Part shown: positions 46,137-62,926 of the stretch, one piece after another
Layout: each line of letters starts with the position of its first letter
Numbering within the stretch: the first letter of the stretch is position 1
From: Maribacter litopenaei
Lineage (GTDB): Bacteria; Bacteroidota; Bacteroidia; Flavobacteriales; Flavobacteriaceae
Direction of reading: 5' to 3'
DNA: 64,000 nt
Assembly: GCF_025244665.1 (NCBI RefSeq)
Contig: NZ_CP104205.1
Location: forward strand, 1,054,001-1,118,000
Program-made: the position numbers and the translations under genes
The notes under the pieces: generated by a model
Databases searched by the model: none
Seen by the model: only the letters and a program-made list of their open reading frames with translations
What the model was told of the DNA's origin: nothing

Positions 46137-46820
46137 ATGAATGTATTGGAGCAATTGCTTTTTTCATATTCGGAAAAGACTATTCCTATTTTAGATAGTT
46201 CAATTCCCCTATCATGCTATGTCCCTTTGGATTTATCTGTCGATAATGTAGAATTAAAAAAAAGGGATATTTCGAGTCCTACAGGATGTCAATCCTATAT
46301 TGATGCGGTTTTGGAACAAAATTCGGGTCATGTGGCATATGGAGGATATTTGGAGCATAGAAATCTTTATGCGGATAAGGCCAGTTTCAATGATAAAAAT
46401 AGTCATCCAAGAAATATTCATTTAGGAATCGATTATTGGGCACCTTCAGGTACCGCAGTCATTGCTCCTTTAGATGGAACAGTGCATAGTTTTAAAAATA
46501 ATAATGTGATAGGGGACTACGGCCCAACCATTATTTTAGAACATCAACTCAATGCAATTGTCTTTTATTCCTTGTACGGTCATTTAAGTCTTGAGTCTTT
46601 AAGAGGAATGAAGACCGGTAAGAAGTTCAAGGCCGGTACTGTTCTTGCGACTTTAGGTACTCCTGATATCAATGTTAATTATGCTCCCCACCTACATTTT
46701 CAAATAATTCATGATTTAGAAGGAAATTGGGGAGATTACCCTGGTGTATGTGCTAAGGATCGCTTGGATTTTTATAAGGATAATTGCCCAGATCCTAATT
46801 TACTTTTGAAAATAACGTAA
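46137..46820 (+). CDS. M23-family metallopeptidase-like protein
   Basis: About 227 residues with a LytM/M23 domain: NIHLGIDYWAPSGTAVIAPLDGTV has the first zinc ligands (H-x3-D), YSLYGHLSLESL and HLHFQIIHD the later ones (HxH). Catalytic residues look complete. I do not see a signal peptide, so either it acts in the cytoplasm or the N-terminus is different. A TTG 21 bases upstream also opens the frame, but it lies in a promoter-like TTTG element; the ATG is preferred. It is divergent from msrA. The frame is intact. Confidence 0.85.
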   Translation: MNVLEQLLFSYSEKTIPILDSSIPLSCYVPLDLSVDNVELKKRDISSPTGCQSYIDAVLEQNSGHVAYGGYLEHRNLYADKASFNDKNSHPRNIHLGIDYWAPSGTAVIAPLDGTVHSFKNNNVIGDYGPTIILEHQLNAIVFYSLYGHLSLESLRGMKTGKKFKAGTVLATLGTPDINVNYAPHLHFQIIHDLEGNWGDYPGVCAKDRLDFYKDNCPDPNLLLKIT

Positions 46821-46911
46821 TGCTTCTCGATTAAAAACACCTTTTCTCGGTGATCGGTTTTTAGTGTTATATCTTTTCGTCGATTGAATTTTACACTTTA
46901 TCCCGATTGTT

Positions 46912-46950
46912 GCCGGATAACGAGAAACCGTTGTTTTTCAACGAATCGGC
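46912..46950 (+). promoter_or_regulatory. Nested stem-loop in the leader of the copy-1 peptide gene
   Basis: An inner hairpin CGTTG-TTTTT-CAACG is enclosed by GCCG and CGGC arms. The same bases occur in the other repeat copy. It lies 51 bases before the gene's ATG and could be an operator or a structured 5' leader. I only see the pairing potential; transcription start is unknown. Confidence 0.45.
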
Positions 46951-47001
46951 ACCCCCTGAAATACGCTTGCTAAAGTTATAATAATGTAACAAACGCAAGT
47001 C

Positions 47002-47238
47002 ATGAAAACAGTAGCGACCATCTTCTTCATCATCTTCATAGGAACCGCGGCAAGCGCACAGGATACGAATGAAACCGTAAAGGTTGACACTATCGAGATG
47101 GGCATCGTTACCCAAACCACTCCTTCGGTAATAAAGGAAAGGATGCAAGAAGTGGCCCGTTTGTACAAGTTCAAAAATTCAAGGATCAAAAAGGAGCTTT
47201 CCTTTGCCACTAAAAGGAACAGTCCCAAGATGGCTTAA
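47002..47238 (+). CDS. Small secreted peptide-family protein, copy A
   Basis: A 78-residue protein I cannot assign to a named family. It has a clear Sec signal (VATIFFIIFIGTAASAQ) leaving a mature part of about 58 residues. The C-terminal segment VARLYKFKNSRIKKELSF, ending KMA, recurs in the proteins at 47570, 52048 and 62703. The consensus is hydrophobic-Tyr-basic-aromatic-Lys-x-Ser-Arg-hydrophobic-Lys and a final Lys-x-Ala. It is nearly identical (about six differences) to the gene at 62703 and sits within the 489-base repeat. No enzyme motif or cysteine is present in the mature part. Confidence 0.85.
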   Translation: MKTVATIFFIIFIGTAASAQDTNETVKVDTIEMGIVTQTTPSVIKERMQEVARLYKFKNSRIKKELSFATKRNSPKMA

Positions 47239-47267
47239 CCTACAATACTATCCCCCCGGTAACCCGG

Positions 47268-47283
47268 CCTGCCGAAAGGCAGG
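47268..47283 (+). terminator. Hairpin downstream of copy A (possible terminator)
   Basis: A 6-bp stem CCTGCC/GGCAGG with a GAAA loop lies 30 bases after the stop codon. In copy D the same place reads CCTGCCC-TT-GGGCAGG on + with the loop-closing bases changed in a compensating way, which supports a real structure. No strong T run follows directly, so it may be an mRNA-end or processing signal instead of a classical terminator. Confidence 0.5.
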
Positions 47284-47379
47284 TTTGGGACTACCCCTTA
47301 AAAAGTTGCTTATAATTGTTTTAATCTTCTCCTTTTTTGTGACCTTTTTGAAAATTTATTTGGATTAATACTTGTAGGA

Positions 47380-47520
47380 ATCGATCATTTTTATCGGTGA
47401 AAGGCTAAAAAACATCGATAAAAGTAAAAATATAATGTAGGAATTGACTTACTAAGGATTGTTGTTCATCGAAAAGATTGAATTTCATCGGTAAAATTGA
47501 ACATTTCATCGAAACTCAAA
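47380..47520 (+). promoter_or_regulatory. Phased CATCG-type repeats upstream of copy B
   Basis: In the 331-base gap between two peptide genes, the motif (T)CATCG(G/A)TAAA recurs. Starts are at 47392 (TATCGGTGA), 47413 (CATCGATAA), 47467 (CATCGAAAA), 47486 (CATCGGTAA) and 47507 (CATCGAAAC), spaced 21, 54, 19 and 21 bases. Spacing near two helical turns suggests a regulator binding on one DNA face. The rest of the gap holds the end of the repeat and AT-rich sequence without a gene. Confidence 0.6.
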
Positions 47521-47569
47521 TTCTAAATCTGTAATCGAAGAGTTATATACAGACCAAATCGACCTACTA

Positions 47570-47806
47570 ATGAAAACTATTCTATTTTTTATACTTGTTA
47601 TCTGCATGGGAGCTTTTGCCCAAGCTCAGAAACAGGAACTTGAAATGAAAGTGAGTACCATTTCAATGCCTATTGCTGAACCCATGGATCAAACTAATTT
47701 GGGTGAAAAGCTTCCTGCGATAACCGGTATTTTTGTTCTAAAGCATTCGAGAGTGAAAAGGGCTTTGTCTTTTGTAGTAGAGGAGAAAATTGAAAAACTG
47801 GCTTAA
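47570..47806 (+). CDS. Small secreted peptide-family protein, copy B
   Basis: A 78-residue protein with a Sec signal (LFFILVICMGAFAQAQ). The mature part is short and ends in FVLKHSRVKRALSF followed by KIEKLA. Ser-Arg-Val-Lys and the final Lys-Leu-Ala align with the other three members, while the middle is different. It starts 331 bases after copy A and ends only four bases before the convergent esterase stop. The upstream region carries the phased CATCG repeats. Function unknown. Confidence 0.82.
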   Translation: MKTILFFILVICMGAFAQAQKQELEMKVSTISMPIAEPMDQTNLGEKLPAITGIFVLKHSRVKRALSFVVEEKIEKLA

Positions 47807-48527
47807 TCCGTTATTATTTCAACTCCCTTTTCATTTAGGACTTCAGGTCCCAAAATATCCCAAACATTTTCCGCAACTATTTTTTGGCCTTCTGCTGTTG
47901 GATGGATGCCATCTTCTAGATTGAGTTCAGGTTCTCCAGCTACACCTTCCAAAAGAAATGGAATCAATAGAACATCGTTCTTTTGGGCCAATTCAGGGTA
48001 CATACTTTTGAATTCTGACGTGTATTCCACTCCCATATTGGGAGGAATCTGCATTCCCGCAAGAATGATGGTGGTTTCCTCATTTTTTTTGTGAACGGCA
48101 TCGATTATTTTTTGAAGGTTTTCCCTTGATTTTTCCAACGGAATACCTCTGAGTCCGTCATTGGCACCAAGCTCAAGTACAAAAATATCTACCTCTTGGT
48201 TTAGGATCCAATCCAATCTGTTGAGACCCCCGGAGGTAGTCTCTCCACTAAGTCCGAGTTGATAACGGTATAATTTAGACCTAAAGAGTCAATCCGTTTT
48301 TGGATCAGGTTTGGAAATCCCTGTTCCGTTTCCAACCCATAGGCCGCCGTAAGGCTATTTCCAAAAAATAGAATTACTTTTTCATCGGATGTAGTATCGT
48401 CATCGACAACATTTGGGGATGTTTCAGGGTTCTTCGCCTCATTATTCGATTGTTTTGGTTCCTCACCACAGGCAAATACCAGCAAAAAGGCCAAAAAATA
48501 ACTAAACTTTAATACTTTGTGCATCAT
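47803..48527 (-). CDS. SGNH-hydrolase lysophospholipase/arylesterase (TesA-like) lipoprotein, frameshifted
   Basis: About 241 residues. A lipoprotein signal (FLLVFACGEEP) and an acidic linker lead to VILFFGNSLTAAYGLE (block I, Ser in GNSL), the repaired INSGLSGETTSGGLNRLDW, FVLELGANDGLRGIP (block III) and LNLEDGIHPTAEGQ (catalytic Asp-His). The break at 48254-48258 (CCGAG on +) needs one extra base (TCCGGA). It is divergent from the ABC ATPase gene, the same order as tesA beside ybbA-ybbP in E. coli, which suggests an old conserved unit. Confidence 0.9.
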
Positions 48528-48585
48528 GGATTCTTCTATAAGTAGAAATCATTTGTTTACTTTGTTAGCTTGTACCAAACGATTT

Positions 48586-49277
48586 ATGACAAAGATATTA
48601 AACGTAAGCAATCTAAGGAAAACCTATAAAAGCGGTTCCAAAGATTTAACCGTTTTGGACGGTATTTCCTTTGACATTAATTCAGGAGAAACTTTTTCCA
48701 TTGTATATCTGTCTCGGAAGCGGCAAAACCACTCTTTTAGGATTATGTGCAGGATTGGACCATGTGGATGAGGGAAGTATAGTACTCTGTGGAGTGGAAT
48801 TGAGTAAGTTGAATGAGGACGAATTGGCCTTATTGAGAAATCAAAAAGTCGGTTTTATTTTCCAAGATTTTCAATTACTGCCTACGCTCACTGCTTTGGA
48901 GAACGTAAGTGTTCCATTGGAACTACAAGGAAAGCCTAATGCCCAAAACATAGCCAAGGAATTGTTGGACAAAGTAGGGCTAGGAGATAGGTATGACCAT
49001 TATCCTTCCCAATTATCTCGGCGGGGAGCAGCAACGTGTTGCCTTGGCAAGAGCCTTTTCCACAACCCCGGATATTTTATTCGCTGATGAGCCCACTGGC
49101 AATTTGGACGAGGAGACCGGCGAAAAGGTAATTCAACTTTTGTTCGATCTTAATAAAGAAATGGGAACCACCTTGGTCATCGTTACCCATGATTTGGATT
49201 TGGCCCAATTGACCCGGAAGATTATTAGATTGAAAGGTGGTAAAATCATTTCCAATCAAACCAAAACATTCGCTTGA
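48586..49277 (+). CDS. ABC exporter ATP-binding protein (YbbA-like), two frameshifts
   Basis: About 229 residues, LolD/YbbA type. The Walker A region reads YLSGSGKTT after repair of a +1 at 48713-48717 (CTCGG); the usual first Gly is Tyr here, which may be another sequence error. [20 protein letters not shown] holds the Q-loop, [14 protein letters not shown] the signature (after a +1 repair at 49017-49021), and [17 protein letters not shown] Walker B. The ATG at 48586 fits the family start [17 protein letters not shown]. Its TGA overlaps the TTG start of the permease gene. Confidence 0.9.
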
Positions 49278-51824
49278 ATACTTTAAATACAAACTCAAAA
49301 ACCCCATTTTCATGGTTGCTTAAAATGGCTTGGCGTGATGGCAAAGCCAGTGGTAAGAGACTGTTCCTGTTTATGGGCAGTATAATATTGGGAATTGCCG
49401 CGGTAGTGTCCATACAATCTTTTAGTCAAAACCTTAAAGAGAATATCGGAGGGCAGTCCAAGGCTTTGATGGGAGCCGATTTCCTAATTGATAGTAACGA
49501 ACCCGCAAATGAACGTGTTCTTGAAATAATGGATTCTCTAGGCGGGGCGGGAGCCAAAGAGGTGAAATTTGCTTCTATGGCCGCTTTCGTGAAGAGTGGG
49601 GAAACCAAATTGGTTCAAGTAAGAGGGGTGGAGGGTGATTTCCCGTTTTATGGTGAGTTGGAAACCGAACCCGTAGATGCAGCTTCGACTTATCAAGAGA
49701 AAGGAGGGGCCTTGGTTGATGCCACGGTTATGATTCAGTTCGATTTATCGGTGGGGGATAGTGTTAAGTTGGGTAATACTACTTTCCCAATTATTGGATC
49801 CTTAATTACGGCTCCGGGAAGTACTGGCATTGGTACATCCGTAGCTCCCCCAATAATGGTTCCTTTTGAATTTATGGAGCCTAGTGGGCTTTTGCAAAAG
49901 GGAAGCCGATTGGAATATGCCTATTATTTTAAGTCTCCGAGATGCGGACTTGGAACAGCTTGATGAAGAAGTAGATCCTATGTTGGACGAACAAAATGCC
50001 GATTTGGATACGCATACCTCCACAAGTGACCGACTGGGACGCAGATACGACAATGTGGGCAGATTTTTAAATCCGGTAGCTTTTATTGCCCTGCTACTTG
50101 GATGTGTTGGTATCGCAAGTTCCGTACACATTTATATTAAGGAAAAATTACGGGCGGTGGCCGTCCTTAAATGTTTAGGGGCCACAAGAAAACAAACTTT
50201 TTTAATTTACCTTTTACAAATTGCCGGAATGGGATTGTTGGGTGGATTCGTTGGTACGATTATCGGACTATTATTGCAACAGACATTTCCTTTAATATTA
50301 CAGGAATTTTTACCATTTGAAGTGGAAATATCAACTTCGTATGCTGCGATTGCCGTAGGGTTGATTTTGGGGATTCTAATGTCAGTTTTGTTTGCTCTTT
50401 CTCCGTTACTAAATACTTGGTTCGTATCTCCTTTGCAAGTGTTGAGAGTGCAGGAGAATGTGGGGGTAAAATCCAGAAAGGCCCGGATTTGGGTAGTTTT
50501 GGCCATTGTACTCTTTGTCTTTTTATTCGCTTTATGGCTCTTGAACAATTTAAAATATGCGTTGAGTTTTGTTGTTGGAATTATAATTACTTTTTCTATC
50601 CTAGCGGGTATTTCCATATTGTTTATGGGATTGGTTAAGCGATATTTTCCAAAATCTTGGAGTTTTACCTCAAGGCAGAGTCTTTTAAACTTGTTCCGAC
50701 CGAATAACCAAACCGCTGTTTTGATACTGGCTATTGGAATTGGCACTTTTTTAATCAGTACCCTATATTTTACCAAAGATTTTTTGTTGGCAAAAGCAGT
50801 AGTAGAAGCTAATGAAGAAAGCCCCAACATCATCATGTTCGATGTTCAAACAGGTCAGAAGCAAGATATTATAAATACTGTTTCTCCTAAAGGATTGCCC
50901 ATTTTGGACAACATTCCTATCGTTACCATGCGTATGGAACGGATTAAGGATCGTAGTGTCAATGAAATTCGTTTGGATACCACTACAAGTATCAATAAAT
51001 GGATACTTAACCATGAGTTTAGGGTAACGTATAGGGATTCCCTCATTGGTTCCGAAAAGTTGGTTTCAGGACAGTTTACTACAGAGGTGCCAAAAAATGG
51101 ACCGGTTCCCATGTCTTTGGCGGACAATGTGGCCAGGGACGCACAGGTAGTGGTAGGCGACACCCTACTATTTAACGTGCAGGGGATGCTTATGGAGACA
51201 GTTGTTGCCAGTATCCGCGAGGTTGACTGGGGTAGGATGCAACTTAATTTTTCAATAGTCTTCCCAACAGGAATTCTTGAAAATGCACCACAATTCCATG
51301 TTCTCACAACCAATGTGCCGGACAAATCCACATCGGCCAATTTACAGCGTGAATTGGTACAGAAATTCCCCAATGTTTCCATTTTGGATTTGAGACAGGT
51401 TCTTACCCTTATAGAAAGTATTTTGGACAAAATATCCTGGGTGGTAAGTTTTATGGCCTTCTTCAGTATCCTAACAGGTATTATTGTGTTGATTGGCTCT
51501 GTGCGTAACAGTAAATACCAGCGTATTAGAGAGAGTGTTCTTTTGAGGACCATTGGTGCGAAAAGCAACCAAATTCTTAAAATTACGGCCTTGGAATATT
51601 TATATTTGGGAATATTAGGTAGCGGTATCGGTGTGCTGTTATCCCTTCTTGGTAGTCAGTTATTGGCGTACTTTATTTTTGAAACTCCTTTTGTGCCTTC
51701 TTGGATACCATTTCCGGTAGTATTGCCCGGCATTACGCTTTTAGTTTTGATAATAGGTCTTTTCAATAATCTTTCGGTTTTAAAAAGTCCGCCTCTTCAG
51801 GTACTTAGAAGAGAAAATAGCTAG
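49274..51824 (+). CDS. ABC transporter permease of the FtsX/MacB group (YbbP-like), frameshifted
   Basis: About 849 residues with ten or so membrane helices in two FtsX domains and a large periplasmic part. The first domain has AWRDGKASGKRLFLFMGSIILGIAAVVSIQSF. The FtsX core AFIALLLGCVGIASSVHIYIKEK is followed by AVLKCLGATRKQTFLIYLLQ, and its second copy by VLIGSVRNSKYQRIRESVLLRTIGAK. The break at 49937-49941 (CCGAG) carries one extra base; repair gives KSPDADLEQLDEE. Together with the upstream ATPase it forms a probable lipid or peptide exporter. TTG start overlaps the ATPase stop. Confidence 0.9.
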
Positions 51825-51884
51825 AAATCATTTATTTCTTGAATTAAGAAATACTTTATTAGCATTAAAATAGTCGTCTAAGGA

Positions 51885-52010
51885 CCATTTTCATCGGTAA
51901 TGTGATTTTATCTTTTATTACGTTTACCGAGCTTTTTGTGCACTTAATCCAACAAAATTTCAATGACCGAAAAACAGTGTATTTCAGCGAGGTATAAGGA
52001 TATCAATGTA
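51885..52010 (+). promoter_or_regulatory. Leader region of copy C with CATCGGTAA-type motifs
   Basis: The 223-base gap before the copy C gene contains CATCGGTAA at 51892, a reverse-oriented TTTACCGAG near 51923 and TTTCAATGACCGA near 51958. They resemble the motifs upstream of copies A and B, though the spacing is less regular. No gene is seen in the gap. Confidence 0.4.
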
Positions 52011-52047
52011 CTAGCCGAGTTAGCTTTATATAACCCAAATCGATGTT

Positions 52048-52305
52048 ATGAAAGCTATTTTAACCTTATCCTTAGTTCTTTTTTTCGGAGGAATTTCTTT
52101 GGCACAAGACGCTAAAGTCAATCAAAAAGTAGATGCGGTACAAGCTGATGTTCTTTTGATTGAAAACAATTTCGAAACTGAAAATGTAACAATCTTTGGT
52201 GAGGGTAAACAAACTGGAATTGCAAGATTATATCGCTACAAGAATTCCAGGGTTAAAAGTGCTTTGTTTTTTACTACTAAAAAGGATAAGCCTAAATTGG
52301 CATAA
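52048..52305 (+). CDS. Small secreted peptide-family protein, copy C
   Basis: An 85-residue member with Sec signal LTLSLVLFFGGISLAQ. The mature part carries the best-conserved C-terminal motif, IARLYRYKNSRVKSALFF, and ends KPKLA. The stretch of 18 residues around Lys-Asn-Ser-Arg matches copies A and D almost exactly while the N-terminal mature half is unrelated. It is followed 58 bases later by a 39-residue ORF with a membrane helix. Function unknown. Confidence 0.84.
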   Translation: MKAILTLSLVLFFGGISLAQDAKVNQKVDAVQADVLLIENNFETENVTIFGEGKQTGIARLYRYKNSRVKSALFFTTKKDKPKLA

Positions 52306-52363
52306 AATTTGACCTACTTAATAAACTGTACTTTTTTGTACCATATACTTAAAACACAATGCT

Positions 52364-52483
52364 ATGTTAGTATCTATTACACTTATTGCGGGATTATTGA
52401 TCGCTTCTTATTTGATAATCTTCCCAAAATCAAAAGGAACTTTAAAGCCGATTAAAATACCTGTAGACCGAAATAAAAGATAG
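52364..52483 (+). CDS. Tiny single-helix membrane protein
   Basis: A 39-residue ORF: one hydrophobic helix (VSITLIAGLLIASYLIIF) followed by a basic tail ending PVDRNKR. A promoter-like TTTTTTGTACCATATACTTA precedes it. It is directly downstream of the copy C secreted peptide gene. Such a short frame could be chance, but start, length and strong hydrophobic segment favour a real gene. Confidence 0.5.
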   Translation: MLVSITLIAGLLIASYLIIFPKSKGTLKPIKIPVDRNKR

Positions 52484-52525
52484 GAAAGCGGTTTAAGACC
52501 TCTTTAATATATTTCATATTCATCC

Positions 52526-54112
52526 TTACTGCTTTATTCCGGGTTGCTTTATGGTATAATTGTTTTTGGCCTTGGCTTCATCGACTTGGCGCTTAACATC
52601 GGCCAATAAAGCTTTTGAATCATAAATAATACCATCTTTGATGGTATATTTTACCCCACCAACACGGACTACTTCATTGTCTTCTGTAAGCTTTATGGCA
52701 CCTGTTCCGTATAGTACTTTTAGATTTTTAAGTGGATTTTCGGCAACGACCGCGAAGTCGGCCAATTTCCCGATGGCCACACTACCAATTTTGTCGTCCA
52801 TGCCAAGAGCTTCGGCGCCGTTCAAGGTGGCGGATCTAATAATTTCCAATGGATGGAATCCCGCCTCTCGTAACAATTCCAACTCTCGTATATACGCAAA
52901 ACCATATAGTTGAAATATGAAACCGGAATCTGATCCGGTAGTTACCCGTCCACCTCTATTTTTGTATTCATTTACAAAGGTCATCCATAGTTTATAGTTT
53001 TTCTTCCATGCGACTTCCTGTTCCGTTCCCCAATCGTGCCAATAAGAGCCATGTGATATTTTACTTGGCTGATAGAATTCCCATAATGAGGGTAGGGTAT
53101 AGTCCTCATGCCACTCTGCACGTCTAGCCCTTTGCAAATCCCTACTGGCCTCATAAATGTTGAATGTAGGGTCTAAGGTAAAGTCCAGTTCCAACAACTC
53201 GTTCATTACGTTGTTCCAATGCTCGGAATGCGGTGCTGCCGCCTGTGACCGAGAGATTGCCTGCATTTTCAAAGCGATGCTGTTCGTTTTGATAGTTATA
53301 GTCCAACGGATAATCCTGTACTGTTCTATCATCGAATAGGGCCTCCGGAAGACCGTACCAATGTTCCATGGAGGTAAGCCCGGCACGCGCCGAGTGCAAT
53401 ACGTTCCACCTTGCTACGCTCAATTGAGCATGATGGCAAGCGGAGCCCAGCCCCAATTTTTTATTCTCATCTAAAGCAGCGGCCATAATTTCAGGTTCCG
53501 CACCAAAAAACTTTATACCATCCGCCCCTTTTTTCGCATTGGCACGTACCCATTCCCTCGCTTGTTCTCGGTGTTGTAATAGGTATGTCATTGAGAGGAT
53601 TGAAGGACTTACTTGTTTGTCCGAATCCCGTGTAGGCCATAATACGAGGTGCAATAATTTCATTCTTTTCACTTTTTTCTTTAGATCCATGGTGTAGTCA
53701 ACGCCCCTACCGCTAGGTTCGCGCACCGTAGTGATGCCATGGGCCATCCAAAGTTTGAATACATAATCGGGTTCCGCACCTTGGGCTTTGCCTCCAATAT
53801 GGCCGTGCATATCGATTAGACCGGGCATAAGGTACATTCCCGTACAATCTAATTCCTTGCCACCGGATTTTAATTGCGGCCTATCAGAATCCTTTATTTT
53901 AACCCCAGGATAGCCGACCACTTGTATATTCTTTATTATGTTATTTTCTACCACAATATCAATAGGTCCTGTGGGGGTGCACCATTTCCATTGATTAACA
54001 TGACTCCTCTAATAATCAATTGGGGATATGAATCATCACCTTCCAAAGATTGAGAAAATGAATTGTTAAAGGAAAAAACTAGTAGAATAATCGGGAGAAA
54101 TAACTTTTTCAT
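52526..54112 (-). CDS. Secreted amidohydrolase (imidazolonepropionase-like), four frameshifts
   Basis: About 528 residues with a Sec signal (FLPIILLVFSFNNSFSQ). GKELDCTGMYLMPGLIDMHGHIGG gives the HxH metal site, SACHHAQLSVARWNVLHSARAG and TSMEHWYG the later His residues, and GSVAIGKLADFAVVAENPLKNLK the C-terminal strand. Breaks: homopolymer losses near 53971-53980 and 53671-53680, extra bases at 53567-53571 and 53249-53253 (CTCGG/CCGAG). The net change is zero, and the repaired stretch reads IMAYTGFGQTSKSFNPLNDI then TTPEQAREWV. Substrate unknown. The ATG at 54112 was chosen because the signal peptide only appears there. Confidence 0.85.
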
Positions 54113-54241
54113 CTGGTTTAGGTTGGTGAAAGCTTAAAATCTTAAATGACTTTCTAAATATAGGAAATAACAAGGTAAACCAAGTAGGGAGATAAATAGA
54201 TTAAAGTGGAATTGTGAAGTAGTTAATCGGGAGGGATAAAA

Positions 54242-55457
54242 TTAAGCAACTGGCGATAATTGCTGTTTGATTTCTTGGAACTTGATAATATAATTGGTTC
54301 CTTTTTTACTGGTATCTTTTTGAATGGAACCCTTAAGTTGTCCTGGTAAGGTTATGAATCAATTTAAGGCCTAAGGACTTTGAGTTTTTGTGATTAATGG
54401 TATCGGGAAAACCTATTCCATTATCACCTATGTTCAATACATAATGCTTGTCAATCTCCTTTTTTAAAGCAATGTAAATCTCCCCTTCCTGATCATCGGC
54501 AAACCCATACTTTAATGCGTTGGTTACTGCTTCATTGATCAAAAGCCCCAAAGGTATTGCGGTATCGATTCCCAATTTGATTTACGGAATATCGATTTTT
54601 AGATGAACTTTACTATCTAGACCTTTTATAGACCGAATCAAATACTCACTGAGTTCCTGGACATAGGATCGGTATTCGATTTGACTAATGTCTTTACGCA
54701 TGTACAACATTTCATGCACCATGGCCATGGAGATTACCCGGTTTTGAGTACTTTTTAGAAGATTCTTCATTTTGTTTTCTTGAACACTTCTACTCCGGAG
54801 GCTTAAAAGACTTGAGACCGTTTGAAGATTGTTCTTTACCCTATGATGGACTTCTTTTAAAAGCATTTCTTTTTCGTGCATTTGGCGCGTTAATGCCTTT
54901 TTGGATTTGTAAAGGGCATTATGGGATTTTAATAGGTCTTTACCAAAGATACTGCCAAGCAAATAGAGAGAGAAGGATACCGATAAAAGGCTAAAAATGT
55001 TTCTCGGATTCCATGGGAACAAGGTTCTCCGTAAAACTTAACTCGGAAAACTTTGAGAAAATACGAACAAAATGATGGCAAAGGTAAAATACAGGTAGAC
55101 CCTTCCATGTTTATGTGTATTCACATAACCTGCAAAGACCACCAATGCCAACATGAAAATAAAGGAACTATTGATTCCGCCACTATATAATGTCACCAAC
55201 AAAGCACTAATAAGTGCCAATAAGGACGAAACATGGTATGTAAGGCTTATATTTTTAGTGGTTTTATATAGAAAGGTATTGATAAGATTGGCCACACCAT
55301 AAAGAATAAGCACATGGGGAATTACCCTTGTAATGTCCAATAAAACAAGGCACGCAACCCCCATAGCAATCGCTAGTATGCTGGTAATGTAATTAACCTT
55401 TAATACTAGTTTTATTTTTTCCCTTATGTATTCTTGCTCTATATGAGAATCCGGCAT
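54242..55457 (-). CDS. Membrane histidine kinase (HisKA_2 type), heavily broken
   Basis: About 404 residues. Six hydrophobic helices fill the first half (ITSILAIAMGVACLVLL, SSFIFMLALVVFAGYV). The kinase core follows: MLLKEVHHRVKNNLQTVSSLL (HisKA_2 phospho-acceptor), LLINEAVTNALKYGF (N-box) and GDNGIGFPDTINHK (G1). Breaks: -1 at 55042-55046 and +1 at 55003-55007 (CTCGG), a TAA at 54582-54584 where CCGGAA would give IPEIKLGID, and +1 at 54342-54346 (CCTGG). Repair extends the tail to QEIKQQLSPVA. No response regulator lies adjacent, so its partner is elsewhere. Confidence 0.85.
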
Positions 55458-55566
55458 AATATCAATATTAGATATTTGTTCTTCAATGTTTCCACTGTAA
55501 ATCTAATTATGTTTTTAACATAATACTAAGATTTTTTGTTTTCTCCTAGTAATTCAATTCAGCTCC

Positions 55567-56961
55567 CTAAGCTCTCTTTACTAATGGTTTTAAATCGGTT
55601 AATTCTGATATTTTCATGGGTTTCCCGGACTGGATACTTTTTCTTGCGGCGATTCCAATTAAAATGGCCATGGCCCCATCCCTAACACCAGCCATTCTAC
55701 CATAGGGATCTGGTACTTCAGGATGTAGAAATATTTTATCTTGTAAACGCTTGTCCCCACCTCCATGGCCACTTTTCTCCATATCTACATAAACTGTTTC
55801 AAACTCTTTCCAAAGTTTATGAACTACTATGGGTTTAAAGGAAGTATTTGCTTCACTATTTTGTGTCATTTCACTAGCGTGTTTTTCCGCTTCGTTAGTT
55901 GTGGTTTTTTCAAAATAGGGAATATCCATCCACGCATCTATCCTTCCTTTTGTGCCATTAAATGAGACCCTCCATCCTTCAAATGGGGAATAGGTCGTTA
56001 ATGAGTAATTCAGAATTGTATTGTCTGTATATTTCACTTGAGCGGACATCTTATCGTAAATATTGATGTCTTCCCTAAAAAGACAGTTGTCACGTATGTA
56101 TCCGTCTTCGTGCTCATGATCAACATACAGTTTTTTGGCAAATTCATCCTTATGGATGTCCCAATAAAAATCACACACATTTTTATGGTCACAAGATCTG
56201 CAATTATCTCCCCTATAAGGGCCATTTTTTCCATAAAACTCTAAATCCCCATAGGCAAAAACTTCATTGGGTTCAGAATTGATCCACCAGTTGAGTAAAT
56301 CAAAATGATGGGTAGCCTTATGTACCCAAAGAGAACCGCTACTTTCCATTTCACCATGCCATCTTCTGAAATAGGAAGCGCCATGATAGGTGTTCAGATA
56401 CCAATTAAAATCTACGGAGACTAAATCTCCGATAGCTTTTTTGGAGAGCAATTCCTTTATTTTTGTATCATAGGGTTTCCATCTGTAATTAAATCCTACG
56501 ATTAGATTTTTGCTAGATACTCTTTCGGCGTCCAATATTTGCTGACATTTTACTTCATCAATTGTCATTGGTTTTTCTGTTAAAACATCGCAACCCATTT
56601 CCGGACCCTTTATGATAAATTCATGATGGGTAGAATCCTTTGTGGTTACGATTATTAAATCCGGTTCGGAAGTAGTAACCATTTCTTTGAAGGAAGTAAA
56701 AGTAGGACAGCTAACTCCTATATATTGTTTGCCGTATTCCAATCGGCTTGGGTTGATATCACTAAGGCCTACAAATTCTAAAATTTCAGAGTATTCGTCT
56801 ACTAGACGTTTTCCCCAAAACGTAATACCACGAATTCCAGTACCTACGAGGGCTACCTTTAGTTTCTTTTCTTTGTCAAAAGAAAAGGCTTTTATGGGAA
56901 TGGCACTGCTTGCGGCGAGCATACTTATGGAGAAAATAAATTCTCTTCCGGAATTTTTCAT
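55567..56961 (-). CDS. Gfo/Idh/MocA oxidoreductase, exported
   Basis: A 464-residue oxidoreductase. The N-terminal signal-like segment (FIFSISMLAASSAIPIKAF) precedes LKVALVGTGIRGITFWGKRLV, the dinucleotide-binding loop. CDVLTEKPMTIDEVKC supplies EKP, then HKATHHFDLLNWWINSEP the second-domain His region. CRSCDHKNVCDFYW is a Cys cluster not typical of small family members; a metal role is possible. The frame is intact, and the gene is preceded by a 147-base gap to secA. Substrate is probably a sugar or its glycoside. Confidence 0.9.
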   Translation of the reverse strand: MKNSGREFIFSISMLAASSAIPIKAFSFDKEKKLKVALVGTGIRGITFWGKRLVDEYSEILEFVGLSDINPSRLEYGKQYIGVSCPTFTSFKEMVTTSEPDLIIVTTKDSTHHEFIIKGPEMGCDVLTEKPMTIDEVKCQQILDAERVSSKNLIVGFNYRWKPYDTKIKELLSKKAIGDLVSVDFNWYLNTYHGASYFRRWHGEMESSGSLWVHKATHHFDLLNWWINSEPNEVFAYGDLEFYGKNGPYRGDNCRSCDHKNVCDFYWDIHKDEFAKKLYVDHEHEDGYIRDNCLFREDINIYDKMSAQVKYTDNTILNYSLTTYSPFEGWRVSFNGTKGRIDAWMDIPYFEKTTTNEAEKHASEMTQNSEANTSFKPIVVHKLWKEFETVYVDMEKSGHGGGDKRLQDKIFLHPEVPDPYGRMAGVRDGAMAILIGIAARKSIQSGKPMKISELTDLKPLVKRA

Positions 56962-57063
56962 AATGAGTATTTAACTATCCTTTTAAAGATATTTAAAATT
57001 TACAATGTGCTGGGGATTATGGCTTTACTTTTTTATTAGGAAGAGAAGTAGGTTACATGAAAT

Positions 57064-57095
57064 AAAAAAGACGCTACATTGAGCGCCTTTTTTAT
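57064..57095 (-). terminator. Terminator after secA
   Basis: A stem GGCGCT / AGCGTC with G-U pairing and a CAATGT loop is followed by a T run on the minus strand, 14 bases after the secA stop. The opposite strand also ends in a T run, so it may serve both directions. Confidence 0.85.
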
Positions 57096-57108
57096 AGATT
57101 TAAAAATG

Positions 57109-60100
57109 TTAGTCCTGTATTAGAACCCAATCCCCTTTGGAAATTAAAGGCTCCGCTTGTTTATATTTAAGAGTTTTACTTTCTCCGGACATTACATTTT
57201 TAATGGTGACCTTTTCATTTCTGCCTATTTTGGGTTGCTCCCTTACAATAGTCTCGGTTACGGCAGGACGCTGACGCTGTGTCTGTCCGGCAGCCCTGTT
57301 CCGGGCGGCCAGTTCGTCGCTATTGGGTATTTCCTCTTTGGAAGTTTGTATGTTTTCTTTTTTTCGGGGTACGTTTCTGGCCTCTCGGATGTCATTTGGA
57401 TTACCCGATGGCAATTCACCCTTAAATAAGAAGGATACGATTTCCTTGTTTACCTTTTCGATCATTGCCTTGAAAAGCTCAAATGCTTCGAACTTGTAAA
57501 TCAATAAAGGATCTTTCTGTTCGTGAACTGCCAATTGAACGGATTGTTTTAATTCATCCATTTTTCGTAGATGCGTTTTCCAAGAGTCATCAATTATGGC
57601 TAAGGAGATATTCTTTTCAAAATCCGTCACCAATTGCTTACCATCACTTTCATAGGCTTCTTGTAGGTTGGTAACGACATTTAAGGTTTTAACTCCGTCC
57701 GTGAATGGAACAACGATACGTTCAAAATTGTTTGCGTTGTCCTCATATACTTTTTTAATTACTGGAAGTGCGGTAGCGGCATTCCGTTCCATTTTTTCCT
57801 TGTAATGGTCATAACCTGCCTTATAAACCCTGCCAGTAATTTCCTGGGCACTTAGCTTACCAAATTCTTCCTCGCTTACCGGTGATGTCATGGAGAAATA
57901 TTTGATTAGCTCGAACTCAAAGTTTTTATAATCGTTGGCAGCCTTATTGCCCTCTACGATAACCTCACAGGTATCATATACCATATTGGCAATATCCACC
58001 TTAAGACGTTCTCCTTGAAGGGCGTGGCGCCTTCTTTTATAGACAACCTCACGTTGCGCATTCATTACGTCATCATATTCCAACAAACGCTTACGAACGC
58101 CAAAGTTATTTTCCTCAACTTTTTCACGGGCCCTCTCAATGGATTTGGTCATCATACTATGCTGAATGACCTCACCTTCTTCCAATCCCATTTTGTCCAT
58201 CATCTTTGCAACTCTATCCGAACCGAAAAGTCGCATTAAGTTATCTTCAAGGGACACATAGAATTGTGAGCTTCCTGGGTCTCCTTGACGACCGGAGCGT
58301 CCTCTTAACTGTCTGTCGACTCGTCTAGAATCATGTCTCTCGGTGCCGATGATGGCCAATCCACCTGCTTTTTTAACATCCGGGGTCAGTTTAATATCCG
58401 TACCACGACCTGCCATATTGGTGGCAATGGTAACCACTCCAGGATTACCGGCATCGGCAACAACATCCGCTTCTTTTTTATGCAATTTAGCGTTCAACAC
58501 GTTATGTGGAACCTTGCGTACACTCAATAATTTTGATAGTAACTCTGAAATTTCAACCGAGGTCGTACCAATTAGCACCGGTCTGCCAGCCTGACTTAAT
58601 TTGGTTACTTCGTCTATGATGGCATTATATTTTTCCCGTTTGGTCTTGTAAATCAAGTCATTTCTATCGTCTCTAGCTATTGGTCTATTTGTGGGAATTT
58701 CAACAACATCCAATTTGTAGATTTCCCAAAACTCGCCTGCTTCCGTAATGGCGGTACCCGTCATACCGGCCAATTTGCTGTACATTCTAAAATAGTTCTG
58801 TAACGTAACGGTGGCAAAGGTTTGTGTCAACGCTTCAATTTTTACGTTTTCCTTTGCTTCAATAGCTTGATGTAGACCATCTGAATATCTGCGGCCATCC
58901 ATTATACGACCAGTCTGTTCATCTACAATCATCACCTTATTGTCAATTACCACATATTCCACATCCTTTTCGAACAAGGTATATGCCTTTAATAATTGGC
59001 TCATGGTATGTATCCGCTCACTTTTTACCGTAAAATCCTTAAAAAGTTCTTCCTTTAGTTCCGCTTCCTCCTCAATTTCCGGATTCTGTTGCTCTATTTT
59101 GGCTATTTCTGCTCCAATGTCAGGCATCACAAAGAAATCCCTATTTTGCTCCCCTGAAATATAGTTGACCCCTTTATCAGTAAGCTCTATCTCGGTTGTT
59201 TTTTTCATCAATCACGAAAAGTAAATCCTCATCTACTTTTGGCATTTCGCGATTGTTGTCCTGCATGTAAAAATTCTCCGTTTTTTGAAGCAATTGTTTT
59301 ACGCCTTCCTCACTCAAGAATTTGATAAATGCCTTATTTTTTGGAAGTCCCCTGTATACACGCAATAAAAGGAATCCACCTTCTTTGGAGTTGCCTTCTG
59401 CAATTAGTTTTTTGGCTTCGGCCAATACTCCGGTCAAATGCTGTCTTTGCTTTTGTACTATCTCGCTTACCTTAGGTTTAAGTTCGTTGAACTCATGCCT
59501 GTCACCCTCAGGAACGGATCTAGAAATAATCAACGGGGTACGAGCGTCATCCACCAATACTGAATCCACCTCATCCACGATGGCATAATTGTGCGGACGT
59601 TGAACCAAATCTTTGGGTGTATGGGCCATATTATCCCTAAGGTAATCAAAACCGAATTCGTTGTTGGTTCCATAGGTAATATCGGCATTATAAGCGGCCC
59701 TTCTACCATCTGAATTTGGTCTGTGGTGGTCTATACAATCTACTGATAGGCCATGGAATTCAAAAATTGGAGCCATCCACGCACTATCCCTTTTGGCAAG
59801 ATAATCGTTTACGGTTACCAAATGTGCACCATTGCCTGTAAGGGCGTTCAGATATAAAGGTAGGGTAGCTACCAAGGTTTTACCTTCACCTGTTTGCATT
59901 TCCGCAATTTTACCCTGGTGCAGTGCAATACCTCCAATTAACTGGACATCGTAGTGCACCATATCCCAGGTAACCTGCTTCCCAGCAGCATCCCAAGAGT
60001 TTTTCCAAACGGCGTTGTCTCCTTCTAGCGATACGTAGTCCTTTTCGCCCGATAGTTTCCGGTCATTTTCCGTCGCTGCTACCGTCAAGGTTTCATTGGC

Positions 60101-60472
60101 CGCAAATCTTTTTGCGGTCTCCTTGACCACGGCAAATGCCTCCGGTAATATTTTGTTCAACGTTTCTTCGGATAGCTTATAGGCTTCTTCCTTTAATTTG
60201 TCTATTTCGGTGTAGATATCCTCATTTTTGTCGATATCATTGGATTCCTGTACTTCCATTTCAAGTTCAGTAATTTTATCGGTAATATCCTTGTAGGAAT
60301 CTTTTATGGTCTGTTTAAAATATAACGTCTTGTTCCTTAGTTCATCATGGCTTAATTTCTCAAATTCGCTCTCAAAGGATTTTATTTGGTCAACTAAAGG
60401 CTGAAGTTCCTTAACATCTTTCTTGGACTTATCACCAACAAAGGCCTTCAGTATAGAATTTATGATACTCAT
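57109..60472 (-). CDS. secA: Protein translocase ATPase SecA, frameshifted
   Basis: The motor of the Sec pathway, about 1,120 residues, the large size seen in Bacteroidota. [20 protein letters not shown] is Walker [22 protein letters not shown] Walker B (DEVD), then the preprotein-binding domain. [30 protein letters not shown] and [34 protein letters not shown] form the second helicase domain. The C-terminus lacks the zinc-binding Cys tail. The break at 59191-59195 (CTCGG on +) has one extra base; restoring CCGG gives [17 protein letters not shown], the conserved junction. Followed by a DUF2795 gene upstream on the same strand. Confidence 0.95.
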
Positions 60473-60616
60473 AATATGTGTTTGTAATTTGATTTGAAAA
60501 CAATGCCCACAGGGTTGCTAGCTATTAGCGAAATTTTATTCCACATTGAACTTGTTCAAAAGCTGTTCCAGTATGGAAATGAAGCTTGTTTTCTTTTTTA
60601 GACTGCCAAAATTACA

Positions 60617-60646
60617 TAAAAAAAAAGCCTCCAAGGAGACTTTTAA
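60617..60646 (-). terminator. Terminator after the DUF2795 gene
   Basis: Inverted repeat AAAGTCTCC / GGAGGCTTT with a tight loop, followed on the minus strand by nine or more T residues. It separates the DUF2795 gene from secA, which therefore needs its own promoter in the 196-base gap. Confidence 0.9.
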
Positions 60647-60669
60647 GTAGTTATTGTGATATGGAAATA

Positions 60670-60894
60670 TTAATATTCGTCCTCGTTCCGGAGGTAATCT
60701 TCTTCTGTTGGATAATCCGGCCAAATCTCTTCGATAGATTCATAGATTTCACCACCTTCTTCCTCCATGGACTGTAAATTCTCCACAACCTCCAAGGGAG
60801 CACCGGTTCTGATGGAGTAATCTATTAACTCATCCTTACTTGCCGGCCAAGGTGCATCACTCAAATAAGATGCTAATTCTAATGTCCAATACAT
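60670..60894 (-). CDS. DUF2795 protein
   Basis: A 74-residue acidic protein. MYWTLELASYLSDAPWPASKDELIDYSIRTG and APLEVVENLQSMEEEGGEIYESI are the defining DUF2795 helices. The C-terminal PDYPTEEDYLRNEDEY is rich in acidic and tyrosine residues. Function unknown. The frame is intact. The gap upstream to the cobalamin adenosyltransferase (60895-61031) is AT-rich with no further gene. Confidence 0.9.
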   Translation of the reverse strand: MYWTLELASYLSDAPWPASKDELIDYSIRTGAPLEVVENLQSMEEEGGEIYESIEEIWPDYPTEEDYLRNEDEY

Positions 60895-61031
60895 GGTAAT
60901 TGTTTGATTTTAAAATTTTTGCAAAAATAATTTTTAATTGGAAACGACCAAGCTAATTTGTGTTTATTTCGGCCGAGTTATCAACATATTTTTTGCATTG
61001 ATAAATTGATAACGCTTAAATTGTGAATTTA

Positions 61032-61607
61032 TTAGTCCCTCTTCTCGGGAATCCACTTTATTTCCTCAACTCCCAAATCCATTGACAACTTTCGTGCCAG
61101 TACAAAAAGGTAGTCTGAGAGCCTGTTTAAATAGGTGAGAACGGTATCATCAAAGGGCTCATTTTCGTATAAAATGGTCGATTTTCTTTCGGCTCTTCTA
61201 CAAACTGTTCGTGCTATATGACAGTATGACACGGCAGTATGCCCACCAGGTAAAACAAAATGGGTCATTTGTGGCAAAACTTCGTCCATTGTATCCATCT
61301 CCTTTTCAAGAAACAAAATGTCATTATTATTTATTCTTTCTATATTCAATCTTTCCTCGCCATTTTTTAAGATGGCTTTTTGCGGTTCCGTAGCCAAGAT
61401 AGCCCCAGCTGTAAAGAGTTTTTTTTGAATGGTTTGCAGTACGTTTTTATAATTCTCTGCAATATTTTGGTCTGCAATTAGACCCAGCCAAGAGTTCAAC
61501 TCATCTACGGTACCGTAGCTGTCTATCCTAATATGATGTTTGGGAACCCTCGTGCCTCCAAAAAGTGAGGTACTACCATCATCTCCTGTTTTGGTATAGA
61601 TTTTCAT
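61032..61607 (-). CDS. Cob(I)alamin adenosyltransferase, PduO type
   Basis: A 191-residue trimeric ATP:corrinoid adenosyltransferase. MKIYTKTGDDGSTSLFGGTRVPK is the ATP-binding N-terminus, YGTVDELNSWLGL follows, and RTVCRRAERKSTILYEN plus TYLNRLSDYLFVLARKLS form the C-terminal helix bundle. It makes adenosylcobalamin, the cofactor of methylmalonyl-CoA mutase, which fits the MeaB chaperone encoded at 34769. The frame is intact. Confidence 0.93.
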   Translation of the reverse strand: MKIYTKTGDDGSTSLFGGTRVPKHHIRIDSYGTVDELNSWLGLIADQNIAENYKNVLQTIQKKLFTAGAILATEPQKAILKNGEERLNIERINNNDILFLEKEMDTMDEVLPQMTHFVLPGGHTAVSYCHIARTVCRRAERKSTILYENEPFDDTVLTYLNRLSDYLFVLARKLSMDLGVEEIKWIPEKRD

Positions 61608-61666
61608 GCTATTTTCGACTGTTGTAATTTTTTAATACTGAGTGATTAGAAAATAACCATAAGTTA

Positions 61667-61807
61667 TTATTCTTCTGTCTTACGACGTTTATAATCTCCC
61701 ATAAACTTGCGAGACTTTCTCTCTCTAGCTTTTCTTTTGTGGGTAATGGTTATTACCAAATAGATGGCGAAAACAACCCCTAAGACTATGTAAATCGTAT
61801 TATCCAT
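61667..61807 (-). CDS. Small membrane protein, basic tail
   Basis: A 46-residue ORF: one hydrophobic helix (TIYIVLGVVFAIYLVITI) followed by a strongly basic tail (THKRKARERKSRKF, GDYKRRKTEE). Small proteins of this design are common in flavobacteria and often anchor complexes; the function here is unknown. It lies between the adenosyltransferase and the methyltransferase-like gene and could be part of the same transcript. Confidence 0.72.
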   Translation of the reverse strand: MDNTIYIVLGVVFAIYLVITITHKRKARERKSRKFMGDYKRRKTEE

Positions 61808-61825
61808 AATTGGCAATTAAGCATG

Positions 61826-62319
61826 TTAAATTCTAATTTTAAAGTGTTCCTTAGCTTGTTCCCTTCTAAAGAATATTAAGCCACAATAAAATAAATCTAT
61901 AGTAACTGTCACTTCGGTAGTTTTTTTATTTTTTCCCAAGTGGATTTGCGCTCCCTGCTTTTATACATTCCATTTAAAAACACCATGGTATTATTATGGT
62001 AATTTTCCTTGGAAATGGATGTAAATAAAGTACTATTGTTTTCCATATAAATTAAATCATATGGCAAACTATCATACTTCAATTGGTCAAAAGTAGCTTC
62101 CATCTTGATTTTAATATAATCGTCTGCACTGACAAATGCAATACTTTTATAATTAAAATATGAAATTGCCGTAATAAGCACGTGTTCCTTAAGGCTTATG
62201 TTCTTTTCTCTTTTCCTATAAAGTCCTTTGGTCACAAAATTGTAAACAAAAGGGGAATGTACCCCATGTTGATTGGTTGAAAAAATTAGAAATTTAAAAT
62301 AGGAAAGAAATTGGAACAC
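61826..62319 (-). CDS. Shortened methyltransferase-like protein, frameshifted
   Basis: About 164 residues. The start FKFLIFSTNQHGVHSPFVYNFVTKGLY matches the N-terminus of a flavobacterial class I SAM-methyltransferase-like family of about 250 residues. The end, after repair of a missing base at 61914-61917 (CCGG), reads TVTIDLFYCGLIFFRREQA and also matches. The middle with the glycine-rich SAM-binding loop appears to be missing; only YDLIYMENNS remains of the acidic motif region. It may be a degenerate relative without methyltransferase activity. Confidence 0.7.
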
Positions 62320-62390
62320 CTAAGGTTTACAAAATTTTTCAAATGTACTAATACCTTTTATTTTTCTGATTATTTCATCCTAGGTTAGGA

Positions 62391-62879
62391 TATAAGCAAC
62401 TTTTTAAGGGGTAGTCCCAAACCTGCCCTTGGGCAGGTAGGGATACCGAGGGGATACTGGTATTGGTTAAGCCATTTTAGGGCTGTTCGCTTTGGTAGTA
62501 AAGGAAAGCTCCTTTTTGATCCTTGAATTTTTGAACTTGTACAAACGGGCCACTTCTTGCGTCCTTTCCTTTATTACCGAAGGAGAGGTTTGGGTAACGA
62601 TGCCCATCTCGATAGTGTCAACCTTTACGGTTTCATTCGTATCCTGTGCGCTTGCCGCGGTTCCTATGAAGATGATGAAGAAGATGGTTGCTACTGTTCT
62701 CATGACTTGCGTTTGTTACATTGTTATAACTTGCGCAAGCGTATTTCAGGGGGTGCCGATTCGTTGAAAAACAACGGTTTCTCGTTATCCGGCAACAATC
62801 GGGATAAAGTGTAAAATTCAATCGACGAAAGGATATTACCCTAAAAACAGGTCACCGAGAAAAGGTGTTTTTAATCGAG
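62391..62879 (-). repeat. 489-base repeat, copy 2 (inverted relative to 46826-47314)
   Basis: The reverse complement matches copy 1 end to end with the same length. Most differences are single substitutions, e.g. in the promoter near TCGGTGA and in the region after the stop codon. It carries the copy D peptide gene, its leader and the downstream hairpin (62422-62437, arms CCTGCCC/GGGCAGG). A perfect 10-base palindrome CTTGCGCAAG is present at 62730-62739 where copy 1 has a one-sided version. Confidence 0.9.
62467..62703 (-). CDS. Small secreted peptide-family protein, copy D
   Basis: A 78-residue near twin of the gene at 47002: signal ATIFFIIFIGTAASAQ, mature part with VARLYKFKNSRIKKELSF and KMA at the end. 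It differs in about six residues, including Met to Thr at 49 and changes near the C-terminus (FTTKANSPKMA). High protein conservation together with the flanking repeat suggests a recent duplication by an unknown mechanism. Function unknown. Confidence 0.84.
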   Translation of the reverse strand: MRTVATIFFIIFIGTAASAQDTNETVKVDTIEMGIVTQTSPSVIKERTQEVARLYKFKNSRIKKELSFTTKANSPKMA

Positions 62880-62926
62880 GGATTCTGTTTAGGAGTAAGA
62901 TTGTTTTTTTGAATTTTTGGGAAATA

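Follow-up and report, generated by a model that had tools for sequence, protein, structure and literature searches.

The window analyzed here, a stretch of 64,000 nucleotides from the genome of Maribacter litopenaei (contig NZ_CP104205.1, positions 1,054,001 to 1,118,000), raises the question of what several small, exported and mutually related proteins do for the cell that encodes them, and what controls their genes. The four genes concerned, at 47002 (+), 47570 (+), 52048 (+) and 62703 (-), belong to an unnamed family, for which we use the working name FAM. We tentatively favor the reading, to which we would give somewhat less than an even chance, that these proteins are exported effectors under the control of a LytTR regulator, and that, through a basic module of about 27 residues, they bind a conserved partner on which phages act as well.

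An earlier note, made from the letters of the window alone, had placed genes for four proteins of 78-85 residues here, and all four open reading frames are found at those positions (Table 1, copies A to D). The copies can be aligned end to end, with M1, G14, A19, Q20, K27, V28, E46, K58, S60, R61, K63, L66, F68, K76 and A78 invariant in all of them. The shared C-terminal motif described earlier holds overall, except that its start with Tyr and a basic residue is true of only three of the four copies, the version in copy B (47570) reading Phe-Val-Leu-Lys-His-Ser-Arg-Val-Lys. A profile built from these four sequences recovered them from the 3.86-Mb M. litopenaei genome with expectation values (E) of 7.6e-42 to 7.1e-36 and, beyond them, found nothing better than E 0.30 in that genome. 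This profile search, together with the presence of relatives throughout the genus and codon changes that are mostly silent, rules out chance or spurious reading frames.

To characterize the anatomy of the family we used 175 members with upstream sequence, 173 of which were kept after a length filter. In 169 of the 173 the leader, about 20 residues long, has an AxA-type cleavage context at its end, which supports the Sec export proposed in the earlier note; there is no cysteine beyond residue 19 in 169 of the 173. The last 28 residues contain on average 8.8 lysines and arginines versus 0.7 aspartates and glutamates, the final residue is alanine in 153 members, and the consensus C-terminal end reads EVARLYKfKNSRVKKALsFtTKrNkaKlA (lower case, below half). 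FAM is under purifying selection, strongest in the C-terminal motif: across 421 pairs of 75-97% identity, which are not independent of each other, the ratio of non-synonymous to synonymous change (dN/dS) is 0.156 overall, with values of 0.152 for the leader, 0.227 for the conserved start of the mature part, 0.237 for the spacer that follows and 0.08 for the motif. The view that the motif is the constrained unit is thus upheld, and the case for it is made stronger by the recurrence of the motif outside FAM, behind a short spacer or without a leader in phage proteins and in leaderless paralogs (see below). An AlphaFold2 model (mean pLDDT 74.6, pTM 0.31) has only two confident parts, the leader helix and residues 51-78; in the latter the block means of pLDDT are 86-93 and a helix (60-66) and two strands (67-69 and 75-77) are predicted.

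FAM matches were found in all 36 Maribacter genomes searched, with 2-10 matches each at E<=0.1, and in an evenly drawn set of 249 Flavobacteriaceae genomes 50 had a match at E<=0.001. For the comparisons below 45 of the 249 are counted as FAM-positive, namely 44 with a best E below 1e-8 and G092, which has a real if diverged FAM gene with a seven-box promoter; the weaker G058, G062, G069, G193 and G207 were dropped. Among 395 genomes drawn at the level of the order (Flavobacteriaceae included) 15 matched, all of them Flavobacteriaceae and two in the leader half only. Homologs in other genomes, whose absence had earlier been named as grounds for abandoning the family, therefore exist. The earlier reader did not recognize the family, and likewise no Pfam or NCBIfam model matched over its curated cut-off: the first member had no match, and among 94 members there were scattered weak ones, including DUF3316 in five (best E 8.6e-4, a leader-like region being suspected) and GLV1-2 in four. 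A Foldseek search against the PDB gave nothing below E 6. No description of such a system in Bacteroidota was found among the matches listed from open-licence papers, and the passages of PMC11946311, PMC8776804, PMC13288928 and PMC5613140 that were seen make no mention of FAM genes. Certain other candidates were set aside: a weak, lysine-rich likeness to chloroplast ribosomal protein L24, with E 0.14 for FAM and 0.0025 for the leaderless set, was treated as probable low complexity, and an Elusimicrobia match (37%, residues 1-43) covers the leader half only and so was not counted. An RNA element was likewise discarded, there being no Rfam match over the gathering score within 46500-63000, as was plasmid-borne cargo, a search of 72,556 plasmid records with the window protein having given nothing at E<=1.

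Upstream of every FAM copy in the window, TTCATCGATAAA-like boxes form an array with intervals of about 20-21 bp. In 174 aligned upstream regions the box centers fall at consensus positions 56, 76, 109, 129, 149 and 170, i.e. with spacings of 20, 33, 20, 20 and 21 bp, and consist of CG, in one case CC. Direct-repeat spacing near 21 bp is typical of LytTR regulators. A matrix from FAM upstreams reached a score of at least 20 in 134 of 175 FAM upstreams versus 18 of the 689 non-FAM genes at those loci, a test that is partly circular in that these FAM upstreams also served to train the matrix; of the 18, some (in loci L095, L102, L107 and L125) share an intergenic stretch with a divergent FAM gene. 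A held-out matrix, made from 78 upstreams of other genera with the box columns chosen on the full alignment, ranks the four FAM promoters at the top of the window (scores in Table 1), the next place scoring 19.1. When 100 sequences of 64 kb were simulated with the dinucleotide make-up of the window, their best places had a median score of 18.7 and a maximum of 28.4, only one sequence reached 27.8 or more, and the fourth-best place was never above 18.6. An exact promoter pattern had 13 mismatch-free matches in 14 genomes, 12 of them FAM promoters and the other at 2195950 of the M. litopenaei genome; with one mismatch allowed there were 88 matches versus 57 for a reversed control, indicating that these are mostly background and that only the exact matches are informative. 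A search for paired boxes (TCATCGR at 20-21 bp) was too degenerate, with FAM promoters making up two of its 14 matches and six matches to the reversed control.

A candidate for the protein acting on these boxes is a REC-LytTR regulator encoded elsewhere in the genome (1408979-1409557), with a TPR kinase gene adjoining it in each locus read. This regulator is found in 45 of 45 FAM-positive genomes (79-97% identity) versus 6 of 204 FAM-negative ones (63-76%), with a Fisher p of 2.2e-43 that is not corrected for shared descent. The N-terminus of the TPR protein has a leader-like stretch followed by TPR repeats, and its kinase part is a putative one, suggested by 37-38% matches beside the regulator. 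A second kinase is encoded close to FAM itself. Domain scans cover this kinase, the regulator and the TPR protein; in the linked kinases scanned Pfam recognizes HisKA_2, and there is an N-terminal membrane domain. With presence defined as a best match of at least 200 bits, a cut set after the list was seen, the linked kinase occurs in 43 of 45 FAM-positive versus 3 of 204 FAM-negative genomes (Fisher p 3.8e-42, kinship ignored). The FAM-positive genomes lacking it are G237, in which the contig ends beside FAM, and the fragmented G092, and the FAM-negative ones with it are G095, G111 (kinase elsewhere) and G257. It lies on the FAM contig in 42 of the 43, within 6.2 kb of FAM in 39 and within 0.6 kb in 12. 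The sequence SGGIxS(P/S)F is present in the membrane domain of 28 of 30 distinct full-length kinases; the other two do not match the search pattern, one of them having TGGINSSF. A simple hydropathy cut gave five hydrophobic segments in the one kinase tested. The linked kinase genes are sometimes in tandem. The window also has, at 29570-31103, a LytS-like kinase gene followed by another REC-LytTR gene (30504-31103), with no link to FAM seen; in this assembly the LytTR match of the latter extends past the point where the annotated frame ends, and with a LytS-like kinase gene adjoining it this gene was set aside as the FAM regulator.

The C-terminal motif is not restricted to FAM. Leaderless proteins of 53-58 residues with this motif, and with no box array, occur in five genomes (G642, G263, G198, G186 and G015), where they sit between genes that we take to encode a methionyl-tRNA synthetase and a DUF1501-like protein, with one extra gene in G263; full-length matches to the leaderless protein were found in four of the 249 genomes, all FAM-positive. 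A tblastn search of 50,697 phage records with the window protein yielded eight records (six isolates), all of them Mollyvirus of Maribacter, at E 6e-6, the encoded protein having 65 residues and comprising a leader, a short spacer and then EVARLYKFKNSRIKKALNFETKK (two records read). A leaderless host query matched 26 records at E up to 10, including eight Maribacter records and 15 Cellulophaga phage records at E 3-9 (five of the 15 read); three cyanophage DNA polymerases and one Listeria phage match, the last with a second leaderless query, were taken as chance. Against eight phage proteins, the FAM profile matched Colly with 57 bits, the leaderless 50-residue proteins of Callevirus (phi38:1 gp072 and Calle_1) with 34 bits, and those of Helsingorvirus (phi17:1 gp23, phi18:1 gp19 and phi12:1 gp18; 59 residues as annotated, with leader and motif) with 26-28 bits. 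Two neighboring phage genes used as controls had no match to the profile. Finally, a 42-kb viral contig, the host of which is not known, encodes a protein of 37 residues with little beyond the motif, and three more scans of viral contigs found only known relatives, on Mollyvirus or Helsingorvirus contigs. Within at most 300 bases upstream of the Mollyvirus gene (L276, upstream of 2122) a 15-bp direct repeat, exact and spaced at 21 bp, resembles the host boxes; other such runs in that locus reach at most 9. The box score is modest (15.7), and use of the host regulator by this gene is for that reason only a suggestion. Inspection by eye revealed no array upstream of the other phage motif genes.

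Taken as exported effectors, the FAM proteins would be the output of a two-component circuit, in which the REC-LytTR regulator encoded beside the TPR histidine kinase would bind the phased boxes and turn on several FAM genes together, and the HisKA_2 kinase near FAM might perhaps also feed this regulator. The products would then be exported by Sec and freed of their leader by signal peptidase I. Their active part would be the basic module at the C-terminus, some 27 residues long and predicted to form a short helix and a hairpin, and its target may be a conserved envelope partner of the producing cell, the variable middle serving as a spacer. Phages would carry the module, with or without a leader, to act on the same partner during infection. 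We also considered a broader proposal, namely that one module is common to marine Flavobacteriaceae, with several secreted copies under a LytTR circuit and some leaderless forms, and to at least four viral lineages, one of which has stripped it to 37 residues, and that it has a single target on which both depend; this we would call rather unlikely.

Several observations weigh against the effector reading. An earlier control with laxer settings reached a chain of 31.6 once in 40 simulated strands, so that a single array is not proof and the weight lies in all four FAM promoters ranking first. The regulator and its TPR kinase also occur in genomes without FAM, and G257 retains the HisKA_2 kinase without it. 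There is no clear array at the 14 regulator loci that were scanned whole (best chain 22.0), and none of 32 linked-kinase upstreams reaches a box score of 20; as neither kinase nor regulator has a clear array, nothing indicates that the circuit regulates itself. The co-occurrence was computed for one of the 11 LytTR genes of the genome, and another of these could be the regulator. It also ignores shared descent: the FAM-positive genomes could all belong to a single clade, and the block of genes that contains the kinase is a conserved one. The main unexplained fact is that the leaderless forms fit badly with a target at the envelope only. The partner would have to be accessible on both faces of the inner membrane, unless these proteins have another site of action.

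The main rival is that FAM, or a C-terminal fragment of it, is a peptide signal sensed by the HisKA_2 or the TPR kinase and feeding back on its own promoters, with phages carrying a mimic, and we regard it as unlikely but the most serious of the alternatives. Small exported proteins with a kinase nearby, a co-occurring LytTR regulator and phased direct repeats are what such a system would present, as are the tandem kinase genes and the presence of the module in phages. The leader-like stretch and TPR repeats at the start of the TPR kinase also fit, TPR domains being the parts that bind peptides in RRNPP regulators. However, most peptide pheromones vary, unlike the FAM motif, which varies little between genera. 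Moreover, G186, G210, G184 and G137 keep motif-bearing FAM proteins, some copies of which have diverged, though their kinase is without most of its membrane domain, which speaks against FAM as the ligand of that domain; and the SGGIxS(P/S)F of the kinase resembles the quinone-binding GGXXNPF of RegB, hinting at a small-molecule input.

A role in phage-host conflict is distinctly less probable. On that account FAM would be a host protein that hinders phage entry or an adopted phage exclusion protein, and the phage copies would exclude rivals or counter the host. The occurrence of the motif in Mollyvirus, Callevirus, Helsingorvirus and a further viral contig, with the Mollyvirus and Helsingorvirus forms retaining the leader, agrees with this, as do the several copies per genome, some of them in tandem. 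Against it, the PADLOC anti-phage models gave only two isolated weak matches, one member each, among 94 FAM members (the neighbors were not scanned for defense genes), the main FAM locus has ordinary genes around it, in a block that is conserved, and purifying selection and presence in 36 of 36 genomes of the genus set FAM apart from most defense genes. That FAM is a protein released to harm competitors, a cationic antimicrobial or something like a bacteriocin, as the basic last 28 residues, the small size, export and the special promoter might suggest, is very improbable: no bacteriocin family was matched, no immunity partner was recognized among the neighbors seen (no search aimed at one was made), and the strong conservation of the basic part across genera, as well as in phages and leaderless paralogs, is hard to explain for a toxin.

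The arrangement of the copies in the window bears on how the family evolves. The outer limits drawn in the earlier note (46826 and 62879) agree with the ends of a duplicated unit that includes copies A and D (Table 1). With 190 bp of upstream sequence included, these two copies share 93% identity, and neither exceeds 81% with copies in the other seven genomes compared. The same homogenization within the genome is seen in G009, G033 and G017, and not in G002, G016, G007 and G001. That copies are held alike in four of the eight genomes points to concerted evolution rather than the ongoing diversification that had been suggested, an idea also at odds with the purifying selection on the copies. 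Tandem arrays of near-identical FAM copies are seen at L100, L101 and L106 (in G085, with eight matches in the genome, and G091, with four consecutive copies).

Table 1. Positions of FAM genes, promoter arrays and related features (window coordinates unless a locus is named)
Feature	Position	Strand	Description
FAM copy A	47002-47238	+	78 residues: signal peptide, variable middle, basic C-terminal motif
FAM copy B	47570-47806	+	78 residues; motif without Tyr-basic start
FAM copy C	52048-52305	+	85 residues
FAM copy D	62467-62703	-	78 residues; protein 94% identical to copy A
Duplicated unit, about 489 bp	46826-47314	+	Promoter, copy A and downstream inverted repeat
Duplicated unit, second copy	62391-62879	-	Holds copy D; far end counted from alignment
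Promoter array, copy A	46823-46921	+	Chain of 4, score 30.8 (held-out matrix)
Promoter array, copy B	47465-47517	+	Chain of 3, score 32.8 (held-out matrix)
Promoter array, copy C	51869-51994	.	Chain of 6, score 33.0 (held-out matrix); scored on - strand, boxes nearly palindromic
Promoter array, copy D	62784-62882	-	Chain of 4, score 27.8 (held-out matrix)
HisKA_2 histidine kinase gene linked to FAM	54309-55457	-	In this assembly 3 stops break the frame within the matched stretch; relatives have an intact gene
Leaderless paralogs	L234:4781-4954, L235:4765-4926, L236:4921-5088, L237:4896-5054, L238:4943-5104		FAM motif
Phage and viral-contig motif proteins	L276:2122-2319, L277:2501-2698, L280:2956-3108, L281:2938-3090, L282:2920-3099, L283:2920-3099, L284:2920-3099, L287:4989-5102		Three phage genera and one further viral contig

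In Maribacter and many other genera the FAM genes are surrounded by a recurrent block of genes, which, judging from sequence, we take to encode MsrA, an M23 peptidase, an esterase, LolD/FtsX, an amidohydrolase, the kinase, SecA, PduO and ABC-F. In 20 stretches from other genera, the ends of which were chosen by us, the kinase is present in 13 and FtsX in 10. Between copies B and C of the window (48201-51824) there are esterase and LolD/FtsX-type ABC transporter genes, as in many FAM loci, though not all (only 10 of the 20 stretches). This transporter might at most be a candidate for the dedicated export machine that the earlier note named, next to secreted signals and surface or adhesion tags, when it listed possible roles. 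In the window the esterase, LolD, FtsX, amidohydrolase, kinase and SecA genes (47803-60472) are each broken into overlapping open reading frames, and this single-contig genome is rated 81.68% complete; the splits are probably assembly indels rather than true pseudogenes. In G257 (L207:9145-10065) SecA, PduO and a short HisKA_2 kinase are in the kept order with FAM absent, possibly through secondary loss. A second recurring FAM site in the genus adjoins genes whose products, as read from sequence, are an FAD-dependent oxidoreductase and a DEAD-box helicase, in 13 of 20 further loci (L112-L114, L116-L118, L120-L122, L125 and L127-L129). A link between FAM and the helicase was rejected: its gene is found in 23 FAM loci, but only one of its 23 upstreams has an array, which amounts to adjacency only.

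Should the broader proposal of a module shared by host and phage hold, it would be a regulated host-phage control system of a new type for Bacteroidota. The libraries searched give no family name to these proteins, though a sizeable group of marine Flavobacteriaceae retains them in several copies, behind a promoter that is conspicuous in its surroundings. The co-occurring regulator and the boxes constitute a concrete regulon to test. The presence of the same basic module in bacteria and several unrelated viruses suggests a role important to both, and the phage copies provide a genetic handle, as whatever the module binds should matter to cell and virus alike.

Among catalogued families the nearest is phrog_26162, a PHROG of phage proteins with 59 positions, with matches from 33 of 94 FAM members at E<=0.01, the lowest being 5.9e-7. 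For the window protein the matched part spans the C-terminal motif; the Mollyvirus copy reaches only E 0.025. The length of this PHROG is that of the Helsingorvirus gp19-type proteins, which carry leader and motif, and it may have been built from them, as this length suggests; it differs from FAM in its much shorter middle and, its function being unknown, gives no mechanism. The linked kinase invites comparison with the RegB/RoxS redox kinases. RegB has six transmembrane segments, and its GGXXNPF motif is described as binding ubiquinone (PMC8191878 and PMC10525716). The SGGIxS(P/S)F of the linked kinase resembles this motif as given there. GGXXNPF itself is absent from the linked kinase, which has serine in place of asparagine; it further differs from RegB in its HisKA_2 domain and in having only five segments by hydropathy cut in the one kinase tested. 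Although the family matches no named one, its layout recalls the LytTR-controlled peptide regulons of Gram-positive bacteria, which are of the Agr, Com and Blp type. In contrast to these, FAM has a Sec leader rather than double-glycine or AgrB processing, a linked kinase of the HisKA_2 rather than the HPK10 type, a regulator encoded elsewhere and a motif that is conserved rather than hypervariable. Like them, it has several small exported products, a membrane kinase nearby, a co-occurring LytTR regulator, and promoters with direct-repeat boxes about two helical turns apart.

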